From the NCBI RefSeq assembly GCF_025148125.1, contig NZ_CP102267.1, forward strand, positions 1,622,501 through 1,686,500: 64,000 bases of DNA. The letters run 5' to 3'. A program made the position numbers and the translations under genes. The notes under the pieces were generated by a model that saw only the letters and a program-made list of their open reading frames with translations, had not been told where the DNA came from and ran no database searches. This DNA comes from Blautia wexlerae DSM 19850. GTDB taxonomy: Bacteria > Bacillota > Clostridia > Lachnospirales > Lachnospiraceae. Shown piece after piece: positions 27,662 to 62,580 of this stretch (the stretch's first letter is position 1; every line of letters starts with the position of its first letter).

Positions 27662-27694
27662 GTAACTTATATTAGAGGTCTCAAAGGGACGCGC

Positions 27695-27900
27695 AGAAAA
27701 ACAGTTTGTTTCGTGTGCGGTTTCGGGATCTAAGATATTCTAAGCTGCCATAAATCTGCTAAAAGCATGAGCCGTCTTATCAAACTCGCTCCGTTGCAAA
27801 CTTCGCTCAGACAGTGATGCAGCCGGCTCATAACGCAGATTTCTGCCAGCTAAGAATATCTAAGATCCCTGCAAATGCACACGAAACAAACTGTTTTTCT
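27695..27900 (+). repeat. 206-bp palindromic element with conserved internal loops, copy A
   Basis: The outer 24 bases (27695-27718) are perfectly complementary to 27877-27900. Inside is a second, imperfect stem beginning GGGATC/GATCCC, with CTAAG on both strands, that ends at AAATCTGC/GCAGATTT. A third stem follows (GAGCCG/CGGCTC), and the top carries ACTCGCT and CGCTCAGACAG. The unpaired segments, including GCGGTTTCGGG opposite CCCTGCAAATGC and TAAAAGCATGA opposite TCATAACGC, recur in copy B at 61321-61520, but the paired arms are different in sequence there. It has no coding potential. It lies between the ilvA terminator and the MNT/HEPN pair. Confidence 0.85.
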
Positions 27901-28149
27901 TCGCTGGATATTTAGCGGTAATTTATGGAATTGCTATAAATTAACTTTGTCAAGAGAAGATGCTTGATATTAATTTTGAAAGAATGCCGTAAATACGCGC
28001 TTTTCCGGGCATATTGGCAGGAGTCTGTGACAATCTTGTGACAAATGCGGGAAAAATATGAATTTACAGTGTGAGAAAGCAGTAGAAAAGATATGGTGGT
28101 TCGGTTATAATAAAGAAAAAAGTATCGAAGCAGGAAAGGAGAAAACATT

Positions 28150-28491
28150 ATGCCGGTAACAATAAAAATATTGTTGGATCAGTATACCGAAATATTACGG
28201 AAGATATATGGAAGTCATTTAAAGACAGTAATTTTATATGGATCCTATGCAAGGGGAGATTATAAGGCAGATTCTGATATAGATATAATGATTCTCCTGG
28301 ACTTGTCAGACATAGATATTAAACAGTATCGCCATGAATTGTCAGGAGAAACTTTTGATTTCAATATGGATCATGACCTTGATATTAAACCGATAGCAAA
28401 AAGCCAACAGCATTTCCAGAACTGGGTTGATGTATACCCATTTTATGCGAATGTAAAGAAAGAAGGGGTGAAACTGTTTGATGCAGCCTAA
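28150..28491 (+). CDS. MNT-type nucleotidyltransferase, probable antitoxin of a HEPN/MNT pair
   Basis: 113 residues. The nucleotidyltransferase signature GSYARGDYKADSDIDI lies at 31-46, with a third acidic residue expected in DFNMDHDLDIKP. This minimal fold (no extra domains) is the MNT class that pairs with HEPN proteins. In characterised MntA/HepT systems the MNT enzyme adds AMP groups to the HEPN RNase and silences it. The ATG is preceded by GGAAAGGAG. It overlaps the HEPN gene by 11 bases. A TATAAT at 28106-28111 may be the promoter. Assignment as antitoxin is by analogy. Confidence 0.85.
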   Translation: MPVTIKILLDQYTEILRKIYGSHLKTVILYGSYARGDYKADSDIDIMILLDLSDIDIKQYRHELSGETFDFNMDHDLDIKPIAKSQQHFQNWVDVYPFYANVKKEGVKLFDAA

Positions 28492-29002
28492 TGAAAAGGG
28501 AACGCAGAAAGATTTGGTATTGTATCGTATTGAAACCTCTAAAAGTGACATCAAAGCAGCTGAAATCCTTTTGGCAGCTAAAGAATTCCGTGGAGCAAAT
28601 AACCGGGCATATTATGGGATTTACCATGCAATATCAGCTGTGCATGCGTTGGATGGCAATGCGTATAAAAGACATAAAGATGCTCTGGCGAATTTCAATA
28701 AGAATTATGTAAAAACGGAGATTTTTCCGAGAAAGCTTGGAAAGAAAATTGTTGAATCAGAAGAAATCCGTCATGCCAGTGATTATGATGATTTCTATAT
28801 AGCGACAAGAGAAGAGGCTGAGGAACAGATCCAGACAGCAAAAGAGTTGGTATCACGTGTAGAAGAATATGTACAGGCAAGATGGAAGAAAGAGTCTGAA
28901 AAAACTGTTCGAAATGCGGAATACCTGGATATGATAGACAGAGGAATTGCTCAGTTATCAGCAGGCAATGGGCAGGAACATGAGCTGAACGAGACAGACT
29001 GA
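28481..29002 (+). CDS. HEPN domain protein, partner of the MNT nucleotidyltransferase
   Basis: 173 residues, mainly helical. The block RGANNRAYYGIYHAISAVHA near residues 39-58 and ASDYDDFY near 100 are typical of the HEPN family that follows MNT genes. The catalytic RxxxxH motif of RNase-active HEPN proteins is not evident; instead there is R-H-A-S-D-Y, so it may be an inactive or substrate-binding HEPN protein. The ATG at 28481 has AGAAGGGGTG upstream and overlaps the MNT stop, so the two are coupled. The last 40 residues are charged and possibly disordered. Confidence 0.8.
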   Translation: MQPNEKGTQKDLVLYRIETSKSDIKAAEILLAAKEFRGANNRAYYGIYHAISAVHALDGNAYKRHKDALANFNKNYVKTEIFPRKLGKKIVESEEIRHASDYDDFYIATREEAEEQIQTAKELVSRVEEYVQARWKKESEKTVRNAEYLDMIDRGIAQLSAGNGQEHELNETD

Positions 29003-59354: not shown

Positions 59355-61100
59355 TCAGACTTCCCTGACTCCTTTTAATGACGGTTCAGCCATCAGCGAA
59401 TAATTTGTATAATAAACCACAAATCCGGGCTTCGCCCCTGCAGGTTTTTTCACCTGCTTCTTCTGGATATAATCAATCTCCACCTTAGGGGCAGTACGTC
59501 CTTTGGAATAATAAGCGGCAAGCTGTCCCGCAATCTCAAAGATATGATCCGGCAGTTCGCCGTCCTTAGACTTCACGACCACATGCGAACCGGCCATCTT
59601 CTTGGCATGAAACCACCAGTCATTCCCTGTGGCAAACTTAAAGGTAAGTTCATCATTCTGGAAATTATTTTTTCCCACATAAATATCATACCCATCCTCA
59701 GTCACATAATGGAACGGCTTAGACTTACTCTGCGCCTTCTGCCCCTTCCTGTGGTCATAATGCTTCTTAATATACCCATACTCCATCAGCTCTTCCTTGA
59801 TCTGTGCCAGATCACTCTCAGCCAGAGCAATATCCAGAGCATTGGAAACAGACTCCAGATGCTCAATCTCACTTCTCGTATCTGCAATCTGCTCAGTCAG
59901 AGCCTCCTCCGTACGCTTCAGCTTTCCATACTTGTCAAAATACTTCTTGGAATTCTCCGCCGGAGTCATAGTAGGATCAAGAGGAATGGTAATCTCCTCA
60001 TTGGTATAATAATTCAGAGCCTTAAACGACTTACATCCATCCTCCAGCCCATACCCGTAAGTATTGATCAGCTCCCCGTAAACCTTATACTTCTCCTTCT
60101 TCGCAGTATCCTTCATCTGCTTCTCCTGCAGACTCAACTTCTTACGGTTACGCTCCAGCGCAGTCTGCACGATCCTTCTCAGATCCGAAGACTTCTGATG
60201 GATACGCGTCAGCGTATTCTTCGTCGCATAATAAGTCTCCAGCATCTGTGAAACACTCTCAAACTCCACAGAATGATACTCCGGTCCATACTGCTGGAAC
60301 GCAAACACACCATACTCCACAGGTTCTTCCCCCCGGTAAACAATATTCGGAGAAAAATCCCCCTCCACAACCTGATCCATCAGCCTGCGGAACGTATGAT
60401 ACAAATGCACCCTCGCCGCCTCATCCAGAGACTGCGCTGCATCACTCCCGTCGATCGAAGCCCTGAAACAGATCTCCTCCGCAACAACCGGACTGATTCC
60501 AGTAAGAGAAGAGTAAACAGCCCTGGAAACATTACATGGCTTCCTGCACACAACATCACAGAACTCCTCCTCACTCACAGTCAGCGGATCCAGCTTATCC
60601 TGCGTCTTCGGAATAAAATACTCCCTTCCCGGAAGCACCTCACGCACAGAACTCATATGAGAAGAAACATGCTTGATACTATCCAGGATCATCCCCTTAT
60701 CATCACAGAAAATAATATTACTGTGCTTGCCCATCAGCTCCATGATAAGAACCTTCTTACAGGGATCTCCCAGCTCATTCAGATGCTCCAGCTCAAACAT
60801 CACCACACGCTCCATCCCCGGCTGCCTGATATCCGAAATCCTCGCACTTCCAATATGCTTACGCAGCAACATACAGAAATTAGGCGCAGTCATAGGACTG
60901 GGCTTATTCTTAGAAGTAAAATAAATCAGCGGAAGAGAAGCACTGGCCGAAAGCAGCAGCCTGCACTGCCCATTCGCCCCCTTCCCCGTAATCAAAAGCT
61001 CATCCGCCTCCGGCTGAGCAATCTTATTAAATCGTCCACCATCCAAATTCAAATGCAGCTCCTTCACCATAGCCGCAATCGTAATCCCATCAAAAGCCAT
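59355..61100 (-). CDS. rqcH: RqcH / NFACT ribosome quality-control protein
   Basis: 581 residues. The NFACT-N domain starts AFDGITIAAMVKEL and includes MELMGKHSNIIF; a coiled coil follows around residues 290-420; the C-terminal NFACT-R (DUF814) has NDWWFHAKKMAGSHVVV. RqcH binds stalled 50S subunits and adds C-terminal alanine tails that mark unfinished proteins for destruction; older annotations call it a fibronectin-binding protein. The ATG at 61100 has AAAGGAGTG upstream; an upstream in-frame ATG at 61142 lacks one. Confidence 0.93.
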   Translation of the reverse strand: MAFDGITIAAMVKELHLNLDGGRFNKIAQPEADELLITGKGANGQCRLLLSASASLPLIYFTSKNKPSPMTAPNFCMLLRKHIGSARISDIRQPGMERVVMFELEHLNELGDPCKKVLIMELMGKHSNIIFCDDKGMILDSIKHVSSHMSSVREVLPGREYFIPKTQDKLDPLTVSEEEFCDVVCRKPCNVSRAVYSSLTGISPVVAEEICFRASIDGSDAAQSLDEAARVHLYHTFRRLMDQVVEGDFSPNIVYRGEEPVEYGVFAFQQYGPEYHSVEFESVSQMLETYYATKNTLTRIHQKSSDLRRIVQTALERNRKKLSLQEKQMKDTAKKEKYKVYGELINTYGYGLEDGCKSFKALNYYTNEEITIPLDPTMTPAENSKKYFDKYGKLKRTEEALTEQIADTRSEIEHLESVSNALDIALAESDLAQIKEELMEYGYIKKHYDHRKGQKAQSKSKPFHYVTEDGYDIYVGKNNFQNDELTFKFATGNDWWFHAKKMAGSHVVVKSKDGELPDHIFEIAGQLAAYYSKGRTAPKVEIDYIQKKQVKKPAGAKPGFVVYYTNYSLMAEPSLKGVREV

Positions 61101-61214
61101 ATAAAAACACTCCTTTAAAAAATAATCAGTAAAAATAATCAAAACTCAATCAATACGACAGTACGATCAAGAAAAGAAAAAACAAATCAGTTAGTCAGAA
61201 TAATCAACGTTTTA

Positions 61215-61240: not shown

Positions 61241-61320
61241 CAAACAAACTCTAATATAACAGGCCTTTCTGAAAGCCGTCCAATTAAATATACCATATAC
61301 CTCCCACAGCCAGTCACCAG

Positions 61321-61520
61321 CAGGAGAAAATAAATAGTTCCGGGCGCATTTGCAGGGGTTGTAGTAACTCTTAGGCTTCGGGAATCTGCGTTATGAAAAA
61401 AACAGCAACCTGTCTGAGCGAAGCGAGTTTTGCTGTTTTTTTCATGCCTTTAGCAGATTTCCGAAGCCTTAGAGTTGACTAAACCCCGAAACCGCGCCCG
61501 GAACTATTTATTTTCTCCTG
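61321..61520 (-). repeat. 200-bp palindromic element with conserved internal loops, copy B
   Basis: The outer 27 bases (61321-61347) are perfectly complementary to 61494-61520. The next stem contains CTAAGG and ends at AATCTGC; the third is a perfect 16-bp A/T-rich stem ending in ACAGCAA/TTGCTGT. The apex has ACTCGCTTCGCTCAGACAG. Read on the minus strand, its unpaired segments match those of copy A at 27695-27900 while all its arms differ. It lies between the divergent rqcH and yicC genes. Confidence 0.85.
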
Positions 61521-61599
61521 CGTCCTATCTGCGTCCCACCTGCGCCGTCCCTTCTGCTAGTATACCACACATTTCCTACCGCCATCAACGAAAAAATGT

Positions 61600-61698: not shown

Positions 61699-62580
61699 AT
61701 GATAAAAAGCATGACAGGTTTCGGCCGGGCAGAAGTCGTGACCAAAGAAAGAAAAATAACAATCGAACTAAAATCTGTCAACCACAGATACCTGGACCTC
61801 AGCATCAAAATGCCCAGAAAACTCAATTTCCTGGAAGGCGCAGTCAGAAACCTGATGAAAACCTACATCCAGAGAGGCAAAGTTGATGTATACATCACAT
61901 ACGAAGACTACACCCTGGACAACGGAGCTCTCAAATACAACAGAGAACTCGCATCCGAATACATCACCTGTCTTAAACAGATGCAGCAGGACTTTGACCT
62001 TGACTACGATATCAAAGTCAGCACCCTGTCACGCTATCCGGAGGTACTTGTCATGGAAGAACAGTCTGTTGATGAGGAAGCACTCTGGGAATCTCTGGAA
62101 CCGCCCCTTCGCGAGGCATGTGAGAAATTTGTCCAGACAAGGATACTGGAAGGCAGAAATCTTGAGAAAGACCTTATCGGAAAACTGGACAGCCTTGAAG
62201 AAAAAGTATTACGTGTAGAAGCCCGCTCTCCGGAAGTAGTCAATGCCTACAGGACCAAACTGGAAGCAAAAGTTTCCGAGTTGCTGGAAGACACACAGAT
62301 CGACGACAACCGCATCGCAGCAGAAGTCATCCTGTTTTCAGACAAAATCTGCAATGATGAGGAAACCGTCCGCCTTCACAGCCACATCAGGAATATGAAA
62401 AAGATGCTCACAACAGAGAAAGAAGGCATCGGACGCAAACTGGACTTCATGGCACAGGAAATGAACAGAGAAGCAAACACGATTTTATCCAAATCAAGTG
62501 ATCTGGAGATCTCCAACATTGCCATTGATCTGAAAACAGAGATCGAGAAAGTCAGAGAACAGATCCAGAACGTAGAATAG
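61699..62580 (+). CDS. yicC: YicC-family endoribonuclease
   Basis: 293 residues. MIKSMTGFGRAEV at the start and DFMAQEMNREANTILSKSSD near the end are the family's two signature blocks. YicC-like proteins are RNases implicated in small RNA turnover. It begins the yicC-remA-gmk-rpoZ order common in Firmicutes, with remA starting 11 bases after it. The first third of the gene uses more C-ending codons than its neighbours. Confidence 0.92.
   Translation: MIKSMTGFGRAEVVTKERKITIELKSVNHRYLDLSIKMPRKLNFLEGAVRNLMKTYIQRGKVDVYITYEDYTLDNGALKYNRELASEYITCLKQMQQDFDLDYDIKVSTLSRYPEVLVMEEQSVDEEALWESLEPPLREACEKFVQTRILEGRNLEKDLIGKLDSLEEKVLRVEARSPEVVNAYRTKLEAKVSELLEDTQIDDNRIAAEVILFSDKICNDEETVRLHSHIRNMKKMLTTEKEGIGRKLDFMAQEMNREANTILSKSSDLEISNIAIDLKTEIEKVREQIQNVE

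Follow-up and report, generated by a model that had tools for sequence, protein, structure and literature searches.

The two long palindromes noticed in the window (the whole 64,000-nt stretch of Blautia wexlerae DSM 19850 DNA that was analyzed) belong to a family of hairpin elements, about 206-222 nt in length, that sit between genes at 40 places in the genome. The element is very likely a discrete mobile unit. Its ends, internal loops and tip are fixed, and its stems are rewritten in such a way that the two arms change together. The reading that we modestly favor is that of mobile DNA elements, about 220 bp long and non-autonomous, which would be read as a folded single strand through their loops, and whose stems would be kept paired by copying at the DNA level.

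Layout and distribution of the element

The two window copies, A and B, each fold into a single long hairpin in which the internal loops and the tip are fixed. In the 5′ half, GGGACG (GGACG in copy B) is followed by the outer arm, GCGGTTTCGG, CTAAG boxes, a stem, TAAARGC, the inner stem and the tip, and in the 3′ half the tip is followed by AAC, CTAAG, CCTGCAAATGC, the second arm and GCTG. The palindrome with conserved loops that the original prediction described from these two copies is real by both sequence reading and folding, and the unpaired segments that it listed (GCGGTTTCGG opposite CCTGCAAATGC, CTAAG, TAAARGC opposite AAC, and the tip) are present in both. Folded as RNA, copy A reaches -107 kcal/mol (z -14.65) and copy B -123.6 kcal/mol (z -16.33), values matched by none of 200 shuffles in either case.

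Copy A spans 221 nt on the forward strand, from GGGACG to GCTG (27686-27906), with edges taken from an alignment of 18 copies and from copies with unrelated flanks. It had been drawn too short at first; the unit has fixed ends and a loose 3′ tail. Its 5′ outer arm (27695-27718) is an inverted repeat of the 3′ outer arm (27877-27900), and the two pair perfectly over 24 bp. Inward from the 5′ arm, on the same strand, lie the conserved loop GGTTTCGGG (27719-27727, seen in the alignment), two CTAAG boxes (27730-27744, sequence and alignment), the conserved loop TAAAAGC (27760-27766), which the alignment and the consensus fold place opposite AAC at 27832-27834, and the inner stem GAGCCG (27769-27774), which pairs with 27824-27829 in the fold. 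The tip AAACTCGC...GCTCAGACAG (27782-27814) has a variable middle in the alignment and also occurs on other hairpins. On the 3′ side, the sequence has two more CTAAG boxes (27850-27864) and the alignment a conserved loop CCCTGCAAAT (27867-27876). Copy A thus has four CTAAG boxes; copy B has fewer intact. Copy B, defined by sequence, fold and alignment, is 209 nt long, lies on the reverse strand (61318-61526) and is present in the related genome G369. Its outer arm is a perfect 28 bp (61320-61347 with 61494-61521), one more than the original count of 27, and its tip AAACTCGC...GCTCAGACAG is at 61410-61431. Tandem 5′ tips, (G)GGACG, adjoin it on the reverse strand at 61522-61552, three here and two in G369.

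Copy A is flanked by a threonine-dehydratase-like gene (PALP domain) on one side and by a nucleotidyltransferase-domain gene on the other. The latter (PF01909) is followed by another ORF, and we take the layout of the two (28150-29002 of the window) to resemble that of MNT-HEPN toxin-antitoxin pairs. Copy B separates two divergent genes and is upstream of both, an rqcH-like gene (NFACT; 59355-61142, reverse strand) and yicC (61699-62580, forward strand).

A strict pattern, CGCTCAGACAGN{10,30}TCATAACGC, finds 18 places in the genome and none when reversed. The covariance-model search that had been proposed together with the two-copy picture was run with a model of the inner region, R1, built from these 18 copies, and it turns the pair into a family. 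Searching with R1 yields the 40 places of the own genome, all scoring at least 103 bits, with 150 of 1048 first-look candidates scored; 26 extra matches are the opposite-strand echo of the same 40 places. Across 61 genomes, R1 matches occur in 17 (own included), namely 16 of the 37 of the genus and one weak match in another family, and several of the weaker matches have little in common beyond the tip. G369, whose flanks are the most similar to those of copy A among the relatives, has 29 places that score at least 106 bits, and G029 has 23 matches to the element model. As the original prediction had supposed, the element falls into no named family as far as Rfam goes: neither the window nor nine cross-phylum loci yield a match at gathering score. 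A plant miRNA precursor model fell far below its cut-off on both strands of copy A and was put down to chance similarity with a long hairpin.

In the genome G014, the tip motif of one element (L083) is interrupted by an insertion of about 50 nt that separates its two halves. Several elements are followed downstream by a second, short repeat of 49-76 nt that is 92-94% alike; it lies in the right flanks of own_1620171, own_1933986, own_4116079, own_3476808 and L294 of G023. The element has no match in plasmids. It does match five short, unannotated 'Bacteriophage sp.' fecal records (MT836232, MT839563, MT835950, MT837157 and MT840008), three of which have element pieces at or near the record end.

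Joint change of the paired arms

In the 18-copy alignment both sides have changed in 57 of the 74 stem pairs, a number reached by none of 500 shuffles. The double-changed cells number 290, against a shuffle mean of 80.6 (none of 500 as high) and no more than 62 with slid partners, and all 26 outer pairs counted show more than one Watson-Crick type. Two copies had been too few statistically to carry the claim of compensated stems with fixed loops, which now stands on 18. The outer cells of these copies (n = 468) consist of 451 Watson-Crick pairs, 1 G.U, 6 A.C and 10 others; the middle stem has 494 Watson-Crick, 6 G.U, 14 A.C, 14 others and 12 gaps, and the apical stem 239 Watson-Crick, 11 G.U, 6 A.C, 13 others and 1 gap. 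Failed pairs in these 18 best copies therefore include 18 G.U and 26 A.C. In a wider set, for which arm was aligned against arm with worn copies included (33 of 40 own copies usable, 24 of 29 in G369 and 18 of 19 in G023), the own genome gives 950 Watson-Crick, 17 G.T, 6 A.C, 45 others and 28 gaps, and the failed pairs are 17 G.T versus 5 A.C in G369 and 22 versus 2 in G023. G.U is rare throughout, yet it exceeds A.C in the wider sets, so that its rarity is weak evidence. The excess of G.T over A.C among the failed arm pairs of these sets is what pairing at the RNA level, or pairing tolerant of G.T, would give.

Change at one and the same locus can be followed in relatives. Own copies form 15 same-locus pairs with G023 (12 matched at both flanks and three at the left only; flank identity 82-100%) and 25 with G369 (22 and three, respectively; 85-100%). 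These 40 comparisons hold 3035 stem pairs, among which 71 double changes kept Watson-Crick pairing, 47 of them by transversion, against about 2.2 expected if the arms were independent; another 14 double changes ended as a non-pair, and 113 changes were one-sided. Ten of the 40 comparisons, block-replaced or truncated and picked by eye after the alignments had been viewed, were left out to give a reduced set. The 2367 pairs that remain include 15 that changed on both sides and still form Watson-Crick pairs, nine of them by transversion, where about 0.28 would be expected; in two further cases a double change left a non-pair, and 55 changes affect one side only (22 give G.T and 14 give A.C). One-sided changes still outnumber double Watson-Crick changes in both sets.

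The double changes come in two modes. The first mode affects stretches of stem, which differ on the two sides together. Compared with both relatives, own_3263712 differs in its interior and retains the letters of its locus in the outer arms; in own_3093333 and own_3607905, compared with G023, the difference extends inward from part of the outer arm; own_1086211, compared with G369, keeps its interior and differs in the outer arm. The copy own_4097590 is less informative because its 5′ side is damaged. One inner stem, GAGAAGAAAAGT, is found in 4 of 19 G023 copies, 2 of 40 own copies and 1 of 29 in G369, and its presence at several loci makes it seem that modules spread between loci by conversion between copies. 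In the second mode, isolated pairs change with the adjoining pairs unchanged, as in own_688984, where A-T stands against C-G in both relatives, and in own_3224512, which differs from G023 at three scattered pairs. A transversion cannot go through a G.U pair, and the double transversions therefore did not arise from a G.U intermediate.

Coupled change of the arms thus likely reflects DNA-level copying, both between arms and between copies, to judge from the sequences compared; selection on pairing may also act on the stems. Template switching between the arms, combined with conversion between copies, would produce double changes without stepwise selection. The original prediction took the double change as the mark of selection on structure. 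Fixed loops and compensated stems agree with this, but block swaps and double transversions are explicable otherwise, and what looks selected is the set of fixed loops and fixed ends together with sufficient pairing. The family, with dozens of same-locus copies, is a natural experiment on the joint change of paired arms. It also calls for caution, since covariation, ordinarily taken to prove that an RNA is functional, can stem from arm-to-arm correction of DNA as well.

Mobility and the competing explanations

The boundaries of the unit are seen most directly in own_3988976 and own_3980165, whose elements are 95.6% alike and whose flanks agree at only 30 of 80 and 25 of 82 positions; the likeness ends at GGGACG and GCTG. 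The site of copy A is unoccupied in G023 and G001, where both flanks are present and the element is absent, and in G369, which likewise lacks the element and has the left flank together with 20 nt of the right one. Stems that merely repeat flanking host sequence, an outcome named beforehand as fatal to the structural claim, are not what copy A has, as the letters of its arms are absent from all three unoccupied sites. At the copy B site, the flanks are 54 bp apart in G001. No target-site duplication was seen by eye beside 18 copies, but the unoccupied sites are too drifted for the joints to be fixed to the base. The insertions recorded are all past events, with no new insertion observed. GGACG lies within 75 nt of the 5′ edge of the model in 37 of the 40 own copies, and TGG follows GCTG within 14 nt in 29 of 40, which suggests that the 3′ end may extend somewhat beyond GCTG. 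Three tandem 5′ tips with a 15-nt unit occur at own_3953263 (L050), and at own positions 182263-182500 (G000:C1, L435) a segment of about 79 bp, equivalent to the left half of an element (GGGACG to GCTAAA), is present as three tandem repeats. These tandem copies restart at GGGACG, as slippage on a DNA hairpin would produce.

The favored explanation, a mobile DNA element read through its loops, draws on several observations, namely the discrete unit, its dispersal, the unoccupied sites, the coupled double changes, the block swaps and the recurrence of the tip. From these we infer single-stranded recognition, an enzyme acting in trans, and template switching as the copying step. The best reading is that a putative trans-acting protein would recognize the element in its folded, single-stranded form, probably at replication, and that the cues would be the ends GGGACG and GCTG, the fixed internal loops and the fixed loop of the tip. 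The stems would serve as a scaffold for which many sequences suffice provided that the arms pair. Template switching inside the hairpin would copy a change in one arm into the other, and conversion, for which the conserved loops would supply the homology, would bring in stem stretches from other copies on both sides together.

A different account holds that the element is a transcribed RNA hairpin in untranslated regions, with a part in stability or termination or as a small RNA, and that its arms are selected for RNA pairing. The strong covariation with fixed loops is what this account expects, as is the excess of G.T over A.C among failed pairs in the wider sets, and a terminator-like site is found within 110 nt upstream of 17 of 40 copies versus 5 of 40 in a control stretch farther upstream that is probably coding. 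The genes around the copies are less accommodating: copy B stands upstream of two divergent genes, and rough ORF calling finds genes co-oriented with the element at 24 of 39 upstream and 28 of 40 downstream positions, a mixed orientation. A strict rule by which elements follow terminators or run along the gene orientation was rejected, as there is a weak tendency at most, though one that leaves room for an RNA role. Added to this are the single G.U among the 468 outer cells of the 18 best copies, the nine transversions among the 15 double changes of the reduced set, which are impossible via a G.U intermediate, and the lack of an Rfam match at gathering score. On balance, we regard the RNA account as unlikely.

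Two further accounts assign the element to a known type of enzyme. One takes it for an outsized REP-like element moved by an HUH Y1 transposase of the IS200 or TnpAREP/RAYT type, and the resemblance to REP/BIME/REPIN sequences (GTAG and CGTC super-families) is real: both are palindromic, intergenic and multicopy, with inverted pairs common and a short fixed foot, a feature noted for REPs in passages of PMC6006769. Strand placement also fits, since the GC skew of the fetched pieces flips from plus to minus near 2.1 Mb, which makes the GGGACG strand the G-rich strand in 30 of 40 copies; the same relation to the replichores would come from a mechanism that uses the lagging-strand template, but the co-orientation of genes may account for the bias. 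Y1 genes (PF01797) are present in 20 of 28 carrier genomes and missing from eight, including G029 with its 23 element matches, and Y1 was rejected as a universal mobilizer. In the arrangement typical of REP and RAYT, a Y1 gene is flanked by repeats, but element pieces are found at none of the 13 own PF01797 loci, no RAYT was found beside element copies, and of the 30 PF01797 loci fetched from other carriers just two have the tip motif. We hold this account to be improbable. The other account, mobilization by Rpn-type PD-(D/E)XK nucleases (PF12784 or PF04754), seems to us very improbable. In its favor, PF12784 is found in 12 of 16 carriers and in none of 14 controls, a hairpin of the order-mate G225 lies near an rpn gene, rpn paralogues of G024 share a stretch that begins inside the element, and a portion of PMC4853749 reports a Thiomargarita MITE that is related to YhgA-type genes. 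However, PF12784 is missing from 4 of the 16 carriers, as is PF04754, itself present in 2 of 17 searched, and the tip motif occurs at 1 of 30 fetched PF12784 loci (the two G024 loci lie outside those 30). Rpn as a universal mobilizer was likewise rejected.

No candidate for a mobilizing enzyme holds up. On reading, ORFs of at least 80-90 aa in four own intervals between inverted pairs include no obvious transposase, and clustering of 1068 neighboring ORFs (within 2 kb; L103-L212) yields no transposase as a recurrent neighbor of the tip among the 25 largest clusters, the largest of which consists of ABC ATPases (nine loci), a common family. A Pfam comparison took in three rpn proteins and two of the genes that adjoin copies A and B. 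The 13 own PF01797 matches (L019-L031) include some that are broken, and the one read fully has the look of an ordinary IS200-type tnpA. In G024, element hairpins lie about 240 bp upstream of each of two paralogous rpn (PF12784) genes (L422 and L423). The two genes lie in two copies of a 1274-bp stretch, 87.5% alike to each other in unlike surroundings, with its left edge inside an element hairpin, which makes Rpn a suggestive remaining lead for G024 only. The outermost parts of the arms differ between the two units and each still pairs with its own partner, an oddity on which no conclusion is based.

Known systems and the tip beyond the genus

The element departs from REPs in its length and in its several fixed inner loops. 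Sizes of 20-40 bp and of 21-65 nt are given for REPs in passages of PMC3733652 and PMC6006769, respectively. A GTAG-type REP would have about 20-65 nt and a GT[AG]G foot; the element, with about 206-222 nt (221 nt in copy A), has the foot GGGACG. The opposite strand ends in GCGTCCC, which recalls the CGTC type, described in part of PMC3733652 as having a CGTC tag at one end, a stem of 8-9 bp and a CCA-type tail, but the stem of the element is far longer. Integron attC sites may offer an analogy in principle: their stems are poorly conserved and one folded strand is recognized by unpaired features, according to a section of PMC2727003, and the element likewise has variable stems and may have loops that are read. 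They differ in being 57-142 nt long and bound by the integron integrase beside gene cassettes, and there are no cassettes here. MITEs and palindrome-associated PATEs are similarly small, non-coding, dispersed and palindromic, but the present family shows no target-site duplication to the eye, at joints that are only roughly placed, and no transposon sharing these ends was found as a parent. Finally, template switching is presented in part of PMC8794818 as both maker and keeper of hairpins, and quasipalindromes under such correction have arms that change jointly, as the element does; here, in contrast, there is a dispersed family with loops that escape correction.

The tip reaches well past the genus. 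Of the 295 genomes of the order, 10, the own genome among them, contain the pattern AAACTCGCN{0,16}GCTCAGACAG, and the reversed control has no match. In G225, which belongs to another family of the order, the pattern occurs at 15 places, and a slightly looser one gives 14 places, one of them truncated, that to the eye resemble hairpins roughly 230 nt long whose stems are unrelated. Among genome contigs, at least 120 stretches contain the tip; the 80 taken as loci have titles that include Nitrospirae, Bacteroidetes, Deltaproteobacteria, Burkholderiales, Clostridium and others. Among the 67 places in these 80 loci that have full flanks free of N, a perfect stem of at least 6 bp adjoins the tip in 50, compared with 1 of 67 when the 3′ flank is swapped in from another row; the remaining 17 include apparent coding matches. 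TTAACG, a word chosen from a list of common words, lies 3′ of the tip in 13 loci versus one when reversed, an excess that may point to an inner loop in common. For CTAAA, CTAAG and TAACG/AACGC the cross-phylum loci do not clearly exceed the reversed control, which leaves the tip as the only solid feature across phyla. The hairpins of different phyla are alike in the letters of their tip, a likeness that need not mean common ancestry.

It is possible, though doubtful, that all of these form one bacterial class of giant single-stranded DNA hairpins, in which a near-universal tip AAACTCGC...GCTCAGACAG, the loops and the ends would be inherited, the stems rewritten, and the whole read by a widespread hairpin-reading protein. 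If one protein does read the tip, a common hairpin-dependent mobile system has so far been overlooked; no description of the tip motif was found in the open-access literature. In viral contigs, the strict element pattern has no match and the tip pattern matches 10 contigs, with hairpins apparent by eye only in L255, L260 and L262. The contigs of L255 and L262 (IMG/VR) are phage-like, and their tip-bearing hairpins lie between phage-type genes.
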